Of a stretch of 64,000 bases of DNA, positions 2,776 to 62,376 are shown one piece after another. The first letter of the stretch is position 1. Each line of letters opens with the position of its first letter. The DNA is from Jeotgalibaca dankookensis (lineage in GTDB: Bacteria; Bacillota; Bacilli; Lactobacillales; Aerococcaceae): contig NZ_CP019728.1 of the NCBI RefSeq assembly GCF_002005405.1, positions 434,001 through 498,000 of the forward strand. The letters run 5' to 3'. The translations under genes and the position numbers were made by a program. Below the pieces are notes generated by a model. The model searched no databases. It was given only the letters and a program-made list of their open reading frames with translations, and was not told where the DNA came from.

Positions 2776-3087
2776 ATGAATTTAAGAGGAAAGCAAAAGC
2801 AGTTTTTAAAAAAAGAAGCACACCATCTACAACCGCTTTTTCAAATTGGAAAAGCAGGATTGACGGATGAGATTATTCATTCGATCGATGAAGCACTCGA
2901 AAAACGTGAGTTAATAAAAATTAATTTATTACAAAATACAGATGAAGAAGTTGGAGATGTTGCAGAACAAGTAGCAGATCGTACAGATGCATTGATCGTT
3001 CAACAAATTGGTAAAACAATTATCTTTTTCCGTGAATCAACGAAAGAAAAAAACCAAAACATCTCCACACAAGTTAAGAAGATATAG
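2776..3087 (+). CDS. yhbY: YhbY/YqeI family RNA-binding protein (CRM domain)
   Basis: A small (103 residues) basic protein made of a single CRM domain, which binds RNA and associates with pre-50S particles. The family start (LRGKQKQFLKKEAHHLQP) is clear, and the GKAGLTD segment and central helices match. The last 10-12 residues are a variable polar tail. It lies 14 bases after yqeH in an operon of ribosome-assembly and NAD genes. Confidence 0.93.
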   Translation: MNLRGKQKQFLKKEAHHLQPLFQIGKAGLTDEIIHSIDEALEKRELIKINLLQNTDEEVGDVAEQVADRTDALIVQQIGKTIIFFRESTKEKNQNISTQVKKI

Positions 3088-3111
3088 CTTAAAACGGAAG
3101 GTGACGGGAAC

Positions 3112-3762
3112 ATGGTTAGTTTGTTAAGTGTTGTTGAAAAAATGCAATTTTTTGTGTTAGAAGAAACGCAAGCCCATGAAGAGGTAGAAAAACGTCAACG
3201 AGTAGGAATTTTAGGGGGGACTTTTAATCCCCCTCATTTTGGTCATTTAATTATGGCAGAGCAAGCTGGTAAAAAATTGGGTTTAGATAAAGTTTATTTT
3301 ATGCCTGATGCAGAACCCCCTCATATTGATAGAAAACCATTCATCGCTGGAAGGCATCGTTCTGAGATGGTCAAGCGCAGTATTGCGGGTAATCCTCTTT
3401 TTGAGCTCGAAACAATTGAGTTAGAGCGTGGTGGGAAGAGTTATACCATTGATACTATGGAGGAGCTTATAAGGCGTCACCCTCATACCGATTATTACTT
3501 TATTATCGGAGGCGATATGGTTGAGTATTTGCCTAAGTGGCATCGAATCAACGAGCTTGTTACGATGGTTAATTTTGTTGGTGTTGCCCGTCCAGGATAC
3601 GAAAAAATAAGTCCTTATCCTATTATATGGGTCGACTCACCTGAAGTAGCAATCAGTTCTACCGAGGTCAGAAAGATGGTTCGAAACGGTCAATCTGTTC
3701 GGTACCTTGTCCCCGAAGCAGTTGAACAGTACATGATGGAAGAAGGGCTTTATCTTGATTAA
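3112..3762 (+). CDS. nadD: Nicotinate-nucleotide adenylyltransferase
   Basis: NadD converts nicotinate mononucleotide and ATP to deamido-NAD. The nucleotidyltransferase signature GGTFNPPHFGH is at residues 35-45, and the ISSTEVR motif lies near the C-terminus. The core is preceded by about 30 extra residues rich in charged and hydrophobic positions; Lactobacillales NadD proteins often carry such a leader. The ATG at 3112 has a GGAAGGTGA ribosome site. An internal ATG 10 codons later has no comparable site. The gene overlaps yqeK by 8 bases. Confidence 0.95.
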   Translation: MVSLLSVVEKMQFFVLEETQAHEEVEKRQRVGILGGTFNPPHFGHLIMAEQAGKKLGLDKVYFMPDAEPPHIDRKPFIAGRHRSEMVKRSIAGNPLFELETIELERGGKSYTIDTMEELIRRHPHTDYYFIIGGDMVEYLPKWHRINELVTMVNFVGVARPGYEKISPYPIIWVDSPEVAISSTEVRKMVRNGQSVRYLVPEAVEQYMMEEGLYLD

Positions 3763-22053: not shown

Positions 22054-22074
22054 AATCATAGTAATCAATCAATG

Positions 22075-22310
22075 GAACACCCAAAGATTATAAACGAATA
22101 GCGAGTTGACAGCTGGTGGAAGGTCAACAGTCCCTATAATCGGCGGATCATCCGGGAAAATTTTGTTGAAACTCATACTGATAGTAGACAAAATCGCCTA
22201 AACCGCGTTAACAGTTTCTAGAGAAAGCAGGCTTTTTTATGCTTTAAATTTGGGTGGTACCACGAAGATTTCGTCCCTTTACCGAGGGAGAGGTCTTTTT
22301 TTATTTAATA
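22075..22310 (+). promoter_or_regulatory. T-box leader of ileS
   Basis: The conserved T-box core TGGGTGGTACCACG is at 22251-22264, followed by a terminator (about 22264-22305; AAGA...TCCCT paired with AGGGAG..TCTT, then a T-run). The 5' part holds a GTTGAC/GTCAAC hairpin near 22095-22120 and a candidate Ile specifier ATC near 22146-22151 (GGATCATCC). Uncharged tRNA-Ile would favour readthrough into ileS. Confidence 0.92.
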
Positions 22311-35393: not shown

Positions 35394-35463
35394 AAATGAT
35401 TCATTTGATGATAGACTATCTAAGTAAAGATGCGATTGGACTAGGAAAAGTAATTTCGTAAAC

Positions 35464-35668
35464 GTTACACAGAGAAAAAAGTGAATGGTGAGAGCTTTTT
35501 TAACGAACGCGATGAAAGTAGCCTAGGAGCAAGTGAAATGAAGGGGAACTGTGTAATTTTACTCGGAGATACCTCCGTTATCAAATTGAGAGATGGGTAG
35601 AGTATGCCCATAAGTTTAGGTGGTACCGCGAGTTAATCGTCCTGCATAGTTGCAGGGCGTTTTTTTTA
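35464..35668 (+). promoter_or_regulatory. T-box leader of valS
   Basis: T-box core AGGTGGTACCGCG at 35618-35630 is followed by a terminator (CGTCCTGCA at 35638-35646 with TGCAGGGCG at 35651-35659, then eight T). GTTACACAG (35464-35472) pairs with CTGTGTAAT (35549-35557) at the base of stem I. I could not place the Val specifier with confidence. No clear promoter is seen; some transcription may come from tpx. Confidence 0.92.
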
Positions 35669-38391: not shown

Positions 38392-39705
38392 GTGTTTACG
38401 ACTTATGAAGAAGCACTGGATTGGATTCATACAAGAAGAGGTTTCGGACCAAAACCAGGTATACGACGAATGGAATGGTTAATGAACAAAATGAATCATC
38501 CTGAAAGAGACTTTCCATCCATCCATATTGCTGGAACGAATGGAAAGGGCTCAACAGTCGCTTATTTGACCAGTTTATTTCAAACAGCTGGCCATAGTGT
38601 AGGGAGTTTCACATCCCCTCATATTATGAAATTTAATGAGCGAATCAGCTTAAACGGAACGCCAATTTCTGACGAAACGGTTAGACAGTTAGCCAATGAC
38701 CTCTATCCTTTATGTGAAGAAATTTCGCAGACTGAATTAGGCGGATTAACAGAATTTGAAGTCGTTACGGCTATGATGTTTCGCTATTTTTCAATGTCTC
38801 AACCAGATGTCGTTTTGATAGAGGTTGGCTTGGGTGGTCTTTATGATAGTACAAATATAGTCACTCCAGAGGTAACCATTATTACCACTATTGGTATGGA
38901 TCATGTGCAAATATTAGGAAATAGTTTGGAAGAAATTGCCTTTCAAAAAGCTGGTATTCTTAAAAAAGGAGTTCCGGCTATTTTAGGAAATATTCCCGAT
39001 ACAGCTAAGAAAGTTATTTACGAGGTAGCTCAAGAGACTGAGAGTGGTGTTCAAGCTTATAAAGATGATTTTCAAGCGATTGATTTACCAAAAAAGCAGG
39101 CCTTTCATGAATACTTTAATTTTCAAAATTCAAACCAATTTATAGAAAATATTGCGATTAGCTTAATGGGACATCATCAAGTTGATAATGCGGCAACGGC
39201 TCTCCAGGCTTTTCTTTTATACTGTGATCGTTTGGGGTTAACATATTCCAAAGAGACGATTAGAAAAGGCTTTAAAGAAACTTTTTGGCCGGTACGGATG
39301 GAAATTATTTCTCAGAAGCCTTTTATTATTTTAGATGGTGCACATAACGAGCCAGCACTCAGTGCACTTTTAGAGACTATAGAGGGTAACTTTTCCGATA
39401 AAAAAATAAAAATACTCTTTGCGGCTTTGACGACAAAAGAGCTTGAAAAAATAGCCATATGGTTACAAAAAATTCCCAATCATGAAATACATCTTACAAC
39501 GTTTGATTTTCCACGTGTTGCAAGCCTAGCTGATTTAAAGGAACGGATGGCTATTCCAAAAGCAATCTATCATGAAGACTGGAAACAAGCGTTAAATAGT
39601 CTGAAAGCAAACTTAACCGATGATGAAATCTTGCTTGTGACTGGCTCCTTGTACTTCCTATCTGATGTCCGGCATTTCTTTATGGATGATAGTTTGTCAA
39701 ATTAA
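38392..39705 (+). CDS. folC: Bifunctional folylpolyglutamate/dihydrofolate synthase
   Basis: FolC adds glutamate to folates (and to dihydropteroate). The Mur-ligase-like ATP loop is HIAGTNGKGST near residue 50, followed by SFTSPHIMKFNERI, GLGGLYDSTN and LDGAHNEPA. GTG at 38392 follows GTGAAGGTGAAAAG. At 437 residues it is full length. Its TAA stop (39703-39705) is formed by the first bases of an IS30-family element inserted at its 3' end, so the last residues may differ from the ancestral protein. Confidence 0.94.
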   Translation: MFTTYEEALDWIHTRRGFGPKPGIRRMEWLMNKMNHPERDFPSIHIAGTNGKGSTVAYLTSLFQTAGHSVGSFTSPHIMKFNERISLNGTPISDETVRQLANDLYPLCEEISQTELGGLTEFEVVTAMMFRYFSMSQPDVVLIEVGLGGLYDSTNIVTPEVTIITTIGMDHVQILGNSLEEIAFQKAGILKKGVPAILGNIPDTAKKVIYEVAQETESGVQAYKDDFQAIDLPKKQAFHEYFNFQNSNQFIENIAISLMGHHQVDNAATALQAFLLYCDRLGLTYSKETIRKGFKETFWPVRMEIISQKPFIILDGAHNEPALSALLETIEGNFSDKKIKILFAALTTKELEKIAIWLQKIPNHEIHLTTFDFPRVASLADLKERMAIPKAIYHEDWKQALNSLKANLTDDEILLVTGSLYFLSDVRHFFMDDSLSN

Positions 39706-40632
39706 GTGCAACACCTCTTCCATAAAGACCTCGTGAGGCGTTCGGTAGCCAAGACATTTTCTTGGTCTATTATTAATCAGGTACAAAGCTTTTTGAAGTT
39801 CTTCCTGTTCCACATGATCAAAGTTGGTTCTCTTCGGAAAGAACTCCCTCAGGAGTCCATTACTGTTTTCATTGCTTCCTCGTTGCCAAGAAGAATAAGG
39901 ATCTGCGAAATAAACAGGGATGCTTAAGTCTTCTTCAATGACAGGATAACAGCTGAATTCCTTTCCTCTGTCTGTCGTAAAACTTTGGAAGGCAGTTTCA
40001 GGAAAAAGCGTAGTCAGTTTTCGTATAGCCCCTTCCATTGAGGAAGCGGAACGGTTGGGAATTTTGATGGCGAGGTACCAGCGGCTTTTCCTCTCTAGGA
40101 AAGTAGCAACGCAACCTTTTGCCTGTCCGCGTCCTGATACGACGGTGTCCAGCTCCCAGTGACCGAAGGTCGTTCGCTTCTTGACGTCTTTTGGTCGTTT
40201 TGAAATAGAGGTTCCGATATTGAATCTTCCTCTGGTTTCTTTTGGTTTCTGTCGTTTGCCTTTTTGTCTCAGAACGGACAATGGAACTTGTAAGAGACCG
40301 TAATAGAGCCAGCGATAGATTGTTTTGAAAGAAATTTTCCCTTGAAATAGCCGGCCTACAATTTGTTCTGGAGACGAGGTAAGAGTTAGTTTTTCCTGAA
40401 CCTTTTCTTTGATTTCAGAAGTCAACTTTGATTTTGCTCCACAGTTCGCTTTCTTTTGTTTATAGCGTTCCTGTGCCTGATCACACTGATAATATGGGTT
40501 CCTGTTCAGTTCCCGTGAAACAGAAGAAGGGGCACGACCAAGGATTCGAGCGATCCGGCGGATCGAAAAACCTAGATCACGAAGCGTTTCTATTTTTGAG
40601 CGTTCGGCTATGGTAAAATGAGTGTAGCTCAT
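39697..40632 (-). CDS. IS30-family transposase
   Basis: A 311-residue DDE transposase. The N-terminal helix-turn-helix (FTIAERSKIETLRDLGFSIR, then RILGRAPSSVSREL) binds the ends. The catalytic core has WELDTVV (first Asp), TTDRGKEF (second Asp) and SSWQRGSNENSNGLLREF (Glu). The frame is intact, so it may be active. The stop codon TGA lies at 39699-39697, outside the inverted repeat, in folC-derived DNA. Confidence 0.96.
   Translation of the reverse strand: MSYTHFTIAERSKIETLRDLGFSIRRIARILGRAPSSVSRELNRNPYYQCDQAQERYKQKKANCGAKSKLTSEIKEKVQEKLTLTSSPEQIVGRLFQGKISFKTIYRWLYYGLLQVPLSVLRQKGKRQKPKETRGRFNIGTSISKRPKDVKKRTTFGHWELDTVVSGRGQAKGCVATFLERKSRWYLAIKIPNRSASSMEGAIRKLTTLFPETAFQSFTTDRGKEFSCYPVIEEDLSIPVYFADPYSSWQRGSNENSNGLLREFFPKRTNFDHVEQEELQKALYLINNRPRKCLGYRTPHEVFMEEVLHLI
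39703..39716 (+). repeat. Left terminal inverted repeat of the IS30 element
   Basis: TAAGTGCAACACCT, the exact reverse complement of 40709-40722. Its first three bases are the folC stop. Confidence 0.9.
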
Positions 40633-43428: not shown

Positions 43429-43456
43429 TTGTCATTAAAAAAATATGTGTTATTAT
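43429..43456 (+). promoter_or_regulatory. Promoter of the T-box/ABC importer operon
   Basis: TTGTCA (43429-43434), spacer 16, TATTAT (43451-43456). Confidence 0.65.
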
Positions 43457-43504
43457 TACTCTACCTAAATGAAATGCCTAGAAGAGAAAAAGTAGTTTTC
43501 CAAA

Positions 43505-43760
43505 CATTCAATAGAGAGTTTGCGCTTGGTGGAAGCAAACGTTTGAGGGAAATGAACACACATCTCTGAGCAAGCCTACCGAAAAGATTACGATCGCAAG
43601 TAAGTAGACTCGGGTGTGCCCGTTATCGCACTAACGTTTAATAAATGAACGTGACAAGGTAATATCTGTGAAGGTATTACAAATAAAGGTGGAACCACGA
43701 AGCAAATTTGCTATCGTCCTTTGATTTCCTATTATAGGGAATCAAAGGGCGATTTTTTTG
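43505..43760 (+). promoter_or_regulatory. T-box leader of an amino-acid ABC importer
   Basis: T-box core GGTGGAACCACG at 43688-43699, followed by a long terminator stem (about 43715-43730 with 43736-43751; CTTTGATTTCC arms) and seven T. Stem I shows AGAGA (43513-43517) complementary to TCTCT (43563-43567); just 5' of the latter is GAACACACA, offering CAC (His, 43557-43559) or ACA (Thr) as specifier. A 62-codon open frame across the leader is not a gene. Confidence 0.9.
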
Positions 43761-43848
43761 TTGGACTGCAGCCGATGAAATACTGGTAAAACCCCATCGC
43801 TACCATTTCGCTAGGTATAAGAGCTATTTAAATTAGGAGGAAATAATC

Positions 43849-44640
43849 ATGAAAAAACTGATAATGCTAGCAACTTCCACACTTTTACTAGCCGCATGTG
43901 GACAAGAAGTAGAAACAGAAACGACAGAATCCATAGTTGATGGTGCTTTAAAAGAGTCCTACATCATCGGTTTAGATGAAACGTTTGCACCAATGAGTTT
44001 TCGTGATGTCGAGGGTGATATTGTTGGTTTCGATGTAGATTTTGCAACGGAGATTGGTAAACTCAGTGGATTGCGTTTTGAATTTCAACCGATTGATTGG
44101 GTGATGAAAGAAACGGAATTAAATGCTGGTAATATTGATTTGATATGGAATGGTTATACTATTACGGAGGAGCGGAAGGAAAAAGTCGCTTTCAGTGATG
44201 CTTATTTAGAAAATTCCCAAATTATTGTGACGTTAAACGATAGTGACATTCAAAGTAATGAAGACTTAGCAGGACAAGTCGTCGCAACGCAACAAGCATC
44301 AGCAACTCTAAATGCGATGGAAGCGGATGAAACTGGTATTGTAGAAAAGTTTGATGGGGGAGAACCCATCCTTTATCCGACCTTTACAGATGTTTTTAAC
44401 GATTTAGAAAGTGGCCGAAGTGACGCCATTGTAGTTGATGAAGTTTTGGGTCGTTACATTATGAAGCAAAAAGGTTCAGAAAAATTTAATGTTTTAACGG
44501 ATAACTTTGGGGATGAAGAATACGGTGTAGGAATTCGAAAAGAAGACACTGCCCTACAAGAGGCTATAAATGAAGGTTTAGTTGAAATAAAAGAAAACGG
44601 TACATATGACACAATCTATCAAAAATGGTTTGCAAAATAA
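43849..44640 (+). CDS. Amino-acid ABC importer, substrate-binding lipoprotein
   Basis: 263 residues. A lipoprotein signal peptide ends at Cys17 (TLLLAACGQE). The mature part is a family 3 polar amino-acid binding protein: YIIGLDETFAPMSFRD, GFDVDFATEIGKL, DLIWNGYTITEERKEKVAFS and KEDTALQEAINEGL are typical. Ligand cannot be read from the sequence; the T-box specifier hints at histidine. AGGAGGAAATAAT precedes the ATG. Confidence 0.92.
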   Translation: MKKLIMLATSTLLLAACGQEVETETTESIVDGALKESYIIGLDETFAPMSFRDVEGDIVGFDVDFATEIGKLSGLRFEFQPIDWVMKETELNAGNIDLIWNGYTITEERKEKVAFSDAYLENSQIIVTLNDSDIQSNEDLAGQVVATQQASATLNAMEADETGIVEKFDGGEPILYPTFTDVFNDLESGRSDAIVVDEVLGRYIMKQKGSEKFNVLTDNFGDEEYGVGIRKEDTALQEAINEGLVEIKENGTYDTIYQKWFAK

Positions 44641-44682
44641 ATGGAGACTTTTTTTCCACAAGAATAAAAAGGAGCGCTAAAT

Positions 44683-45318
44683 ATGGAACTTATACAAACA
44701 ATTTGGCCATCATTAATGTCTGGCTTTCTTATCTCCCTGCGAATCTTTTTTATTGTAGGCCTAATCAGTATTCCTTTGGGTTTTTTAATCGCTGTGGTGC
44801 GCGTATACGCACCACGATGGATTGGGGCGCTTATTCAGGTATATATTTTTATAATGCGCGGAACTCCGCTATTACTGCAGTTAATGTTTTTCTTCTTTGG
44901 CCTTCCTTTTGTCGGAATTGTTATGGATCGTTTTACTGCAGCAATTTTAGCCTTTATCATTAATTATGCTGCTTATTATGCAGAGATATTCAGAGGAGGA
45001 ATCATGGCGATTCCAAGGGATCAATTCGAATCGATTGATGTTTTAGGTATTGGCAAACTAAGAGGGTTTATTCGTATTATTATCCCCCAAGTTTTTCGAA
45101 TCGTTTTACCATCAATCGGCAACGAAATTATATCTTTGGTCAAAGATACTTCCCTCGTTTATATATTGGGCATTGGTGAGCTATTACGGGCCGGACAAAT
45201 CGCAGCTAATACCTATGCATCTTTAATCCCATTTTTAGGGGTAGGCGTTTTATATCTCGTAATTACTGGTATTATTACACTTATTTTAAATAGCCTTGAG
45301 TCTAGAAGAAAATTTTAG
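44683..45318 (+). CDS. Amino-acid ABC importer, permease
   Basis: 211 residues with about five membrane helices, HisM/GlnP-type. The coupling motif (EIFRGGIMAIPRDQFES, then DVLGIGKLRGFIRIIIPQ) is complete. One permease gene suggests a homodimeric channel. AAGGAGCGC precedes the ATG, 42 bases after the binding-protein gene. Confidence 0.93.
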   Translation: MELIQTIWPSLMSGFLISLRIFFIVGLISIPLGFLIAVVRVYAPRWIGALIQVYIFIMRGTPLLLQLMFFFFGLPFVGIVMDRFTAAILAFIINYAAYYAEIFRGGIMAIPRDQFESIDVLGIGKLRGFIRIIIPQVFRIVLPSIGNEIISLVKDTSLVYILGIGELLRAGQIAANTYASLIPFLGVGVLYLVITGIITLILNSLESRRKF

Positions 45319-45330
45319 GAGGTGGTTAGC

Positions 45331-46011
45331 ATGTTACTAGAAGCAAAAGAAATTTCAAAAAAATTCCAAGGGAAAACAATTTTATCAAACTTTTCGTTTA
45401 AAATTGATAAGGGTGATATCATCGTTTTAACCGGGCGATCAGGTACTGGTAAGACGACCCTCATGCGCATATTAAATAATTTAGAAACAGCAGACAGTGG
45501 CAGCTTAGCGATAGGTGACACGGTACTGTTCAGTCAAACAGAAAAAGGGGTGACTTATGCATCCCGTAAACAGCGGAAATTATTTCAAAACAAGATTGGA
45601 ATGGTTTTTCAAGATTACGCCTTGTTTCCTAACTTAACAGTTCGCGAAAATCTCTTAGAAGCACCTTTGGCTCAGAAATTGGGCAGTAAAGCAGAAATTA
45701 TCCAACGAGCAGAAGCATTAACAGAAGAAATGGGAATCACTGATCAAATGGATAAAATGCCATCACAACTTTCTGGTGGTCAAAAACAACGCGTCGCTAT
45801 TGCCCGTGCCATGATGTTAAATCCCACGATATTATGTTTTGACGAACCCACATCGGCTTTAGACCGCGAATCAGCCGACAGTATTGGACAATTAATTAAG
45901 AAGATTGCAGAAAAAGGAACAGGTATTTTAATAGTAACCCATGATATTCCTTTTGGAGAAAAATATGGGACACGCGTTTTTTCTTCTTCTGATTTTATTA
46001 ATAAGAGTTAA
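45331..46011 (+). CDS. Amino-acid ABC importer, ATPase
   Basis: 226 residues. Walker A GRSGTGKT is at 35-42, the Q-loop in MVFQDYALFPNLTV, signature LSGGQKQRVAIARA, Walker B ILCFDEPTSALD and H-loop THDIPF. The ATG at 45331 is 8 bases after AGGAGGT; the in-frame GTG at 45322 overlaps that site. With the two preceding genes it forms a complete polar amino-acid importer. Confidence 0.94.
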   Translation: MLLEAKEISKKFQGKTILSNFSFKIDKGDIIVLTGRSGTGKTTLMRILNNLETADSGSLAIGDTVLFSQTEKGVTYASRKQRKLFQNKIGMVFQDYALFPNLTVRENLLEAPLAQKLGSKAEIIQRAEALTEEMGITDQMDKMPSQLSGGQKQRVAIARAMMLNPTILCFDEPTSALDRESADSIGQLIKKIAEKGTGILIVTHDIPFGEKYGTRVFSSSDFINKS

Positions 46012-46101: not shown

Positions 46102-47313
46102 ATGGATAAAAATAGAATACTTGTGCAACGTGCTGCAATAATAGGGTCAGGAACAGATGATTTAACAAACATGTTTCTGTCTCTTTCTTTGTCTTCAATT
46201 ATAATTGATTTAGGAATTACCAACGTTCAAGCGGGATCCATTTCAACAATCACGAATTTTGGTATGTTGCTTGGTGGATTGGTATTTGGTTATTTGGCAG
46301 ATAAATACGGGACCCTCAAGCTATTTAAAACGACTTTAATATTATTTGCATTAGCAACGGCTAGTATGTATTTTGCTACCAGTATGACCACAATTTACAT
46401 ACTACGTTTCTTGGCAGGAATTGGTACAGGTGGAGAGTACGGAATTGCTATTAGTCTCTTAGCTAAAGTCACTCCGTCTTCTAAAATGGGCAAAATGTCT
46501 GCTTATAATGGTGTCGCTGGAATGGTTGGGAATATTTTAGCAGCATTGTTAGCAAGTATTATTTTACCGACATTAGGCTGGAATTTTCTTTTCCTACTGG
46601 GTTTATTACCCTTATTGATTGTTGCTTGGGTACACTTCAATGTAAAGGATGATGTTCTTAATCAAACCGAGCATTCGGTTAAAGCAATTAAGCCCTCTTA
46701 TAAAGAACTTTTTAAAACACCAAAACTCGCGCGTCAGACTTTTGCGCTTATGTTTATGGCGATTGTGCAAATTAGTGGCTACTTTGGGTTGATGAATTGG
46801 TTGCCACAAATCATGCAACAAAGTCTTGGGTTAACCGTGTCGGGAAGTTCTTTATGGATGATTGCGACTATAGTTGGGATGTCCGTTGGGATGATTTTTT
46901 TTGGGAGAACATTGGATGCTTTTGGCCCAAGATTAGCCTATAGTATATTTTTAATTGCTTCGGCCTCAGCCGTCTTTTTATTCACTCTAGTGACGAATGA
47001 ATTTGCAATGTTAATCGGTGGCGCTTTGGTTGGCTTTTTTGTAAACGGAATGTTTGCTGGCTATGGAGCAATCGTTAGTAAATTATATCCCAAACACGTC
47101 CATTCAATGGCAAATAATCTTATTATAAATGTAGGACGAGCAGTGGGAGGGTTTTCCTCAATTATTATTGGCTTCCTAATGGATTTTGGGAATATCACCA
47201 CAGTGATGATCTTTTTATCATGTAGTTATCTGGCAAGTTTTCTAGTTATGATGACGATTAAAGAATTTTCAAAACAACGGTACCAGTATGCGGTGATTAA
47301 TATTGAGATTTAG
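46102..47313 (+). CDS. MFS transporter, sugar/aromatic-acid porter-like
   Basis: 403 residues with twelve predicted membrane helices. The loop 2-3 motif GYLADKYGTLKLFK and GTGGEYGIAISLLAKVTPSSKMGKM are typical of metabolite:H+ symporters of the AAHS/sugar-porter branch. The substrate cannot be assigned. It has its own promoter, and the rplU promoter follows its stop at once, with no clear terminator between. Confidence 0.85.
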   Translation: MDKNRILVQRAAIIGSGTDDLTNMFLSLSLSSIIIDLGITNVQAGSISTITNFGMLLGGLVFGYLADKYGTLKLFKTTLILFALATASMYFATSMTTIYILRFLAGIGTGGEYGIAISLLAKVTPSSKMGKMSAYNGVAGMVGNILAALLASIILPTLGWNFLFLLGLLPLLIVAWVHFNVKDDVLNQTEHSVKAIKPSYKELFKTPKLARQTFALMFMAIVQISGYFGLMNWLPQIMQQSLGLTVSGSSLWMIATIVGMSVGMIFFGRTLDAFGPRLAYSIFLIASASAVFLFTLVTNEFAMLIGGALVGFFVNGMFAGYGAIVSKLYPKHVHSMANNLIINVGRAVGGFSSIIIGFLMDFGNITTVMIFLSCSYLASFLVMMTIKEFSKQRYQYAVINIEI

Positions 47314-47349: not shown

Positions 47350-47440
47350 GTTGTAAATGTGTGCACCACAACTACAACCGCACGTAAAGAGTTGAAGTTC
47401 CTTTTGGACACTCTGGTCGGCGAGTCTAAGTATAATAAGG
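47350..47440 (+). promoter_or_regulatory. Probable L21 leader RNA
   Basis: The about 100-base leader before rplU contains CACAACTACAACCGCACG and a GGACACTCTGGTCGGCGAGTC-like hairpin segment (47406-47428), resembling the Firmicutes L21 leader thought to bind L21 for autoregulation. Identified by position and remembered motif. Confidence 0.7.
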
Positions 47441-51671: not shown

Positions 51672-51908
51672 TTAAAAGCCGCTCATAAGAGCGGCTTCTA
51701 AAGTTAATACTTTATAAAAAATTCCGATGGTGCCGTTTTTGTTATTCTACTAGTTTTGAACCCGCAATATCAGCAGGTGGGCTCCACAAAATGTCATCTA
51801 GTGTCCATATGAAGTGGCATGCTATTTGAACATTTATCAAGGATCCCAAGGTAAAATTATTTGTTCGGTCAACACATTGAGAATATATCGTACACCTCAG
51901 AACTTCTT
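51672..51908 (-). ncRNA. ssrS: Probable 6S RNA
   Basis: A gene-free 354-base gap holds a complete minus-strand transcription unit: a promoter at 51915-51943 and a terminator (AGCCGCTC/GAGCGGCT, 51677-51696). The RNA of about 200-237 bases has no usable open frame. Firmicutes 6S RNA is commonly encoded next to rarA, as here, and segments such as CTGAGGTGTACG and CCTTGGGATCCTTG recall that family. The assignment is not proven; folding into a rod with a central bubble was not computed. Confidence 0.6.
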
Positions 51909-62146: not shown

Positions 62147-62164
62147 AGCAACGATTGTAAAAGG

Positions 62165-62376
62165 CCATATTATTTGTAACAGAAAGAGAGTCCACCACTG
62201 GTGAAAGGGGACACCGCAAATAATGCTCCCTTTTTTTAATACGATAGCAATATCGTCGCGACCAGCGTTAACGGTATAGAGACGTAATGATGAATGAAAT
62301 GACTAACATTCCATTGCAATCAAGGTGGTACCGCGTTAAAACGCCCTTGAATGCAATGGGGTGTTTTATTTTTTTT
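62165..62376 (+). promoter_or_regulatory. T-box leader of alaS
   Basis: T-box core AGGTGGTACCGCG at 62323-62335, then AAACGCCC paired with GGGGTGTTT and a T-run to about 62376. CCATTGCAATCAAGG before the core is nearly complementary to the CCTTGAATGCAATGG after it, giving an alternative fold. In stem I, GCT at 62225-62227 is a candidate Ala specifier (a GCA lies a few bases earlier). Confidence 0.93.

Follow-up and report, generated by a model that had tools for sequence, protein, structure and literature searches.

Which amino acid does an ABC importer carry when family models leave it unnamed, and what controls its synthesis? We addressed this question for an operon of Jeotgalibaca dankookensis. 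It lies in a window (the whole stretch of DNA analysed) of 64,000 nucleotides, taken from positions 434,001 to 498,000 of the forward strand of contig NZ_CP019728.1; window positions are counted from its first base. We conclude that a transcriptional, His-specific T-box riboswitch very probably controls a histidine ABC importer, hisX-hisY-hisZ*.

A full-length T-box leader with mutually exclusive hairpins

An earlier note on this DNA had described a complete T-box with terminator upstream of the importer genes, beginning at 43505. The Rfam covariance model for T-box leaders (RF00230) recovered this element with a score of 117.5 bits (E 2.3e-25, cut-off 93) and an alignment that spans model positions 1-219 of 219, its full length. 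The leader is therefore present as described and complete with a 19-pair terminator, but its start lies 35 bases further upstream, at 43470 (Table 1). The specifier loop, UGGN bulge, antiterminator and terminator of the family are all present. Two differences from the model were seen: (i) GAA and the specifier are separated by two bases in the window leader but by one in the model; and (ii) its bulge, UGGA, faces C73 of tRNA-His. The upstream promoter is reported as a consensus match only, because 9 such sites occur in the region and 8.3 are expected from shuffles.

Table 1. Positions in the window of the T-box leader, its elements and the importer genes.
Feature	Position	Strand	Basis
Sigma-70-like promoter, TTGTCA-16-TATTAT, TG before the second hexamer	43429..43456	+	10/12 matches
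T-box leader RNA (RF00230)	43470..43724	+	Covariance model match
5' arm AGAGA of the Stem I helix below the specifier loop	43483..43487	+	Pairs with UCUCU 43563-43567; sequence and model alignment
GAA of the specifier loop	43554..43556	+	Aligned to GAA in the Rfam model
Specifier codon CAC (His), then A43562, then helix	43559..43561	+	Model columns, synthetase-leader register, conservation in relatives
Antiterminator, AAAGG (43685-43689)/CCUUU (43718-43722) plus ACGA (43697-43700)/UCGU (43714-43717)	43685..43722	+	Model pairs, extended by eye
T-box bulge UGGA, expected to meet the NCCA end of the tRNA	43690..43693	+	Sequence and model
Intrinsic terminator hairpin, 19 pairs, then T run	43713..43753	+	Terminator scan and folding
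hisX-like lipoprotein substrate-binding protein, 263 aa	43849..44640	+	SBP_bac_3, E 3.1e-40
hisY-like permease, 211 aa	44683..45318	+	BPD_transp_1; HEQRo_perm_3TM above its cut-off
hisZ*-like ATPase, 226 aa from ATG 45331	45331..46011	+	Pfam ABC_tran; ORF list has GTG start 45322, 229 aa

The terminator has a folding energy of -27.2 kcal/mol, compared with a mean of -8.04 for shuffled sequences (z -7.85), and none of 200 shuffles was as good. The 5' arm of the terminator contains both 3' arms of the antiterminator (43714-43722). Hence, the two structures share this segment and are mutually exclusive, as expected for a transcriptional T-box. Folding Stem I as a single sequence was uninformative (z -0.22) and was set aside.

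The specifier codon and its conservation

The window reads GAACACACA followed by TCTCT at 43554-43567, giving a loop of the form GAA-CACACA-UCUCU. This loop contains two overlapping CAC triplets (43557-43559 and 43559-43561) with an ACA between them. The Rfam specifier columns hold the second CAC, with one inserted base before the codon, and this triplet occupies bases 2-4 before the end of the bulge, which is where the TBDB description (PMC7778990) places the specifier. The earlier note had expected a T-box model to return CAC or CAT and had taken the CAC directly after GAA. The codon was right and no other specifier emerged, but the triplet used is the second one, which we chose because the Rfam alignment puts the specifier there and because relatives have CAC at the corresponding place.

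We used the other T-boxes of this genome (17 in all, hence 16 besides the importer leader) to judge the register. Nine synthetase leaders had an alignment shown, and in eight of them the specifier columns hold the codon of the leader's own gene: valS GUA, tyrS UAC, leuS CUC, serS UCC, thrS ACC, ileS AUC, pheS UUC and alaS GCU. All eight genes are named by NCBIfam above cut-offs. The ninth leader, upstream of hisS, holds GAC (Asp), and aspS is the gene after hisS; the proS (CCU) and glyQ (GGC) leaders agree by eye. As the hisS-aspS leader (L011, G000:C1:790274-790478; also L205) reads GAC and has no His codon, the specifier of the importer leader is the only His specifier read among the T-boxes of this genome.

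Several of the remaining leaders are recorded here in their own right. Those in the window precede valS (GUA, 35426-35647), ileS (AUC, 22059-22281) and alaS (GCU, 62147-62351), the last two positions being computed from genome coordinates. Two neighbouring T-boxes (L002 and L009, G000:C1 about 1357149-1359124) carry CGC (Arg) by our reading; an amino acid ABC permease lies downstream of one and a 454-aa ORF without clear family downstream of the other. Tandem Met (AUG) T-boxes (L007/L008, G000:C1:1729639-1730184) are followed by a MetN-like, NIL-domain ATPase, for which the best NCBIfam model is MetN, under its cut-off. The T-box L016 (G000:C1:1954167-1954349) holds UAC (Tyr) in its specifier columns and precedes an NhaC family antiporter.

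For comparison with relatives, we searched 76 genomes of the family for the binding protein and took 30 binding-protein loci. Leaders were detected by the T-box motif and specifiers by a lenient pattern (CAC or CAT, a purine, at most one more base and two pyrimidines) over about 180 bases, a length at which CAC alone could arise by chance. A motif leader with CAC and a purine was found at 29 of the 30 loci; at the other, L062, the contig ends before the leader region. The two neighbouring families had the motif at 21 of 23 loci, all 21 with CAC. A further 68 loci were counted after L084-L091, L100, L113, L115 and L116 (Trichococcus, Globicatella, Bavariicoccus, or matching family contigs) had been left out. 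The motif was present in 12 of these, from which we dropped L107 (motif 1.3 kb upstream, no CAC); the other 11 are binding-protein leaders that read GAA-CAC-A, with no extra base.

The resulting set of 61 motif-detected leaders (29 from the family, 21 from neighbouring families and 11 others) includes one identical pair, L056 and L058; second leader copies in L071 and L074 were excluded from the family count. GAA, 0-2 bases, CAC and a purine occur in this order in 59 of the 61 importer leaders, versus none of the 16 other T-boxes of the genome. The lenient pattern gave CAC in 4 of those 16, and only in L016, where the Rfam columns hold UAC, did it fall in the specifier loop. Rfam places CAC in the specifier columns of 10 of the 14 importer-leader alignments shown. 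In L072, L073 and L074 the codon is interrupted by a gap, with CAC standing two bases away from the run of pyrimidines; in the second leader copy of L071, the columns hold ACG instead. Rfam was also run on 10 of the 56 non-family loci without motif, plus L107, and found two further importer leaders outside the 61, both with CAC (L093 and L105).

The spacer between GAA and CAC measures two bases in 26 of the 29 family leaders (one base in L067, GAA unclear in L075 and L077) and in 20 of the 21 leaders from neighbouring families, with one base in the remaining leader; all 11 outgroup leaders have none. In this clade CAC is typically preceded by a two-base spacer. Loops of the window's genus read GAA-CA-CAC-A, or GAA-AA-CAC-A in G053, and those of the Trichococcus group mostly GAA-AU-CAC-A/G, with G064 alone reading GAA-CA-CAC-A. 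Thr (ACA), Asn (AAC) and Ile (AUC) were each considered as specifiers and rejected: their triplets come and go among relatives, and CAC stays.

We infer that the leader depends on tRNA-His, that histidine is the ligand and that the transporter works in the import direction. When histidine is short, the GUG anticodon of uncharged tRNA-His would pair with the CAC codon, and its CCA end would pair with UGG of the bulge. The bound tRNA would then hold the antiterminator, allowing polymerase to pass 43753 and the importer to be made. Charged tRNA-His would be unable to seat its 3' end; the terminator would form and transcription would stop.

The importer and its probable ligand

A family 3 binding protein, a polar amino acid permease and an ATPase are encoded in one cluster, under histidine-linked regulation as predicted from the His specifier. 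We filed the operon as hisXYZ* rather than hisYZ*X (permease, ATPase, binding protein), because the binding protein comes first. For the binding protein, no listed NCBIfam model scored above its cut-off. HisJ, HisM and HisP scored far under their cut-offs on the importer proteins, as did every other ligand-specific model shown. The view in the earlier note that the proteins alone give no ligand thus applies to the family models, but similarity to one solved structure does hint at histidine.

By sequence, the first solved relative of the binding protein is 3HV1, from Streptococcus thermophilus, and the second is 4OHN (phmmer E 2.2e-50), a substrate-binding protein of S. pneumoniae whose entry title says 'with Bound Histidine'. 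Both share 36 to 40% identity with the window protein over the domain. 4OHN is the best-matching solved entry with a ligand in its title; our literature search found no paper on it, and the ligand is given by that title alone. Both entries come from Streptococcus, a genus in which Ashniev et al. 2022 (PMC9413887) report hisYZ*X without a known regulator. The AlphaFold model of the binding protein has a mean pLDDT of 88.6, from 21 aligned sequences (21 of 30). In the structure search, 3HV1 was top (Z 29.6, rmsd 1.9, 237 aligned; title without ligand name), and 4OHN was twelfth by Z score (Z 24.8, rmsd 5.0, 235 aligned), after several glutamine-type binding domains. This search shows a fold common to many ligands; of the nearest entries, we relied on the titles only.

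The same His T-box could also govern an importer that accepts cationic or polar amino acids more widely, histidine being the regulatory signal. The family of the binding protein does cover polar amino acids broadly; its good matches include lysine/arginine/ornithine, glutamine and arginine binding proteins, and ArtJ of Geobacillus binds arginine, lysine and histidine according to its entry title. However, the closest match with a ligand-naming title is the histidine-bound 4OHN, and the leaders of many genera keep the His codon alone. We consider this wider range unlikely.

We found no match to HisD or HisB in this genome, which is 99.99% complete. The control searches were positive in 13 of 14 genomes; the exception was B. 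subtilis, which has hisD and hisB, so the absence is not absolute. The host seems unable to make histidine, and for such an auxotroph an importer under a His T-box makes sense.

Bulge, spacer and relation to published operons

T-box bulges usually pair with the discriminator base of the tRNA. In this genome, tRNA-His has C73 and an encoded G-1, and the A of the UGGA bulge does not pair with C73. The thrS and glyQ leaders also carry UGGA, which fits U73 of tRNA-Thr(GGU) and of tRNA-Gly. TBDB, as described in PMC7778990, waives the discriminator-pairing criterion for His T-boxes, because this base can be paired inside tRNA-His. Across the 61 CAC leaders the last bulge base is A in 45, G in 13, U in 2 and C in 1; hence, it does not track C73, as read from tRNA-His in the window's genome only.

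The ill fit of UGGA to C73 would suit a threonine T-box, with ACA at 43558-43560 or 43560-43562 as the specifier and threonine as the imported amino acid. Within CACACA, an ACA indeed lies one base after GAA, a usual spacing in this genome (valS, tyrS and pheS), and the ACG placement in the second L071 copy points the same way. However, the middle ACA is missing from most Trichococcus-type leaders (GAA-AU-CAC-R), the outgroup register is GAA-CAC-A, and UGGA does not pair either with A73, the discriminator of the single tRNA-Thr detected in this genome for the ACA codon (anticodon UGU). An ACR triplet sharing the last two bases of the specifier is formally conserved, but it leaves no base before the helix in the window. 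We regard a threonine specifier as very improbable; CAC is preferred because of the comparison with relatives, and not from the window sequence alone. It is likewise highly improbable that the loop is read by more than one tRNA, for example His and Thr: it is longer than those of the outgroups and offers CAC and ACA frames, but the frames other than CAC are not kept (AACACA in G053, of the same genus, and AUCACR in most Trichococcus leaders).

We suggest only tentatively, as a rather unlikely possibility, that the families around the window's genus hold a distinct class of His leader. Such a class would combine a binding-protein-first operon, the two-base spacer and a bulge that has ceased to match the discriminator, since C73 would be engaged with G-1. 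If true, only the anticodon and CCA of tRNA-His would be read here, and the specifier loop would be altered.

The earlier note had mentioned His T-boxes before predicted histidine importers in Lactobacillales, and these are indeed published. Ashniev et al. 2022 (PMC9413887) put the number of His T-boxes in Firmicutes at 158 (abstract) or 159 (text), the majority in Lactobacillales. These precede his operons, hisYZ*X, hisXYZ* or yuiF, where X is the binding protein, Y the permease and Z* the ATPase; importer operons of this kind were, as cited there, first predicted by Vitreschak et al. 2008. The 2022 paper describes the same composition as in the window, a His-specifier T-box followed by genes for a single binding protein, permease and ATPase of an ABC importer, and histidine auxotrophs among the carriers. 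The gene order differs: the Lactobacillales rows of its Table 3 have hisYZ*X, with the binding protein last, whereas the window operon has it first, the order given there for clostridial operons. Its main text has no mention of Trichococcus, Jeotgalibaca or Globicatella. Within the open-licence literature we found no paper on His T-boxes in this clade, and for T-box together with histidine transporter PMC9413887 only.

The binding protein also comes first at the 23 loci of the two neighbouring families and at the loci of the window's family. The Y-Z-X order was seen at all 12 hand-picked loci from five other families of the order, 11 of which have the T-box motif (L197 has none; in L202 it lies 0.7 kb before the permease; in L203 the gene-proximal leader copy has no CAC). 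Five of these hisYZ*X loci (L193, L194, L199, L200 and L201) show two T-box motifs 104-126 bases apart before hisY. A second Stem I would not fit into this distance, and a single CAC may therefore be shared by two antiterminator units.

The order mreC-mreD, operon, rplU is kept in the window, five further genomes of the genus, G045, Alkalibacterium kapii (L093) and Trichococcus (L084), which indicates a long history of the locus within the clade. In several relatives a second gene for a binding protein stands between X and Y; the window's genome is without it. This second hisX-like gene is intact in G051, G053 and Trichococcus and broken in L167 (G050, about 2903-3674), with stops inside the match. 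Downstream of hisZ*, an MFS transporter gene (46102-47313; nearest NCBIfam model an aromatic acid/H+ symport family, under cut-off) precedes a ribosomal protein L21 leader (47366-47437), which is followed by rplU. The MFS gene is present in 5 of the 6 genus genomes looked at and missing in G051, G045, Trichococcus (L084) and Alkalibacterium (L093). We also note a 6S RNA at 51717-51906 (-; 65.5 bits) and a transposase-like gene at 39697-40632 (-) with HTH_38 and integrase core domains, which we take to be IS30-like.

The window operon is a clear but ordinary new example of the published arrangement. The histidine-importer reading of the earlier note is supported, as a prediction, by the conserved CAC specifier, the similarity to 4OHN and the parallel in PMC9413887. 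The evidence visible at the sequence level comprises the leader, its specifier, the exclusive hairpins, the gene content, the conservation and the lack of a hit to two histidine biosynthesis genes. The analysis provides a firm prediction of histidine as the ligand of an importer that family models had left unnamed, and ties this predicted histidine importer to a genome without detected HisD or HisB. The 61 leaders, with a variable bulge base and a constant specifier, should help to address how tRNA-His, with a discriminator that can be paired, is recognised by T-boxes.
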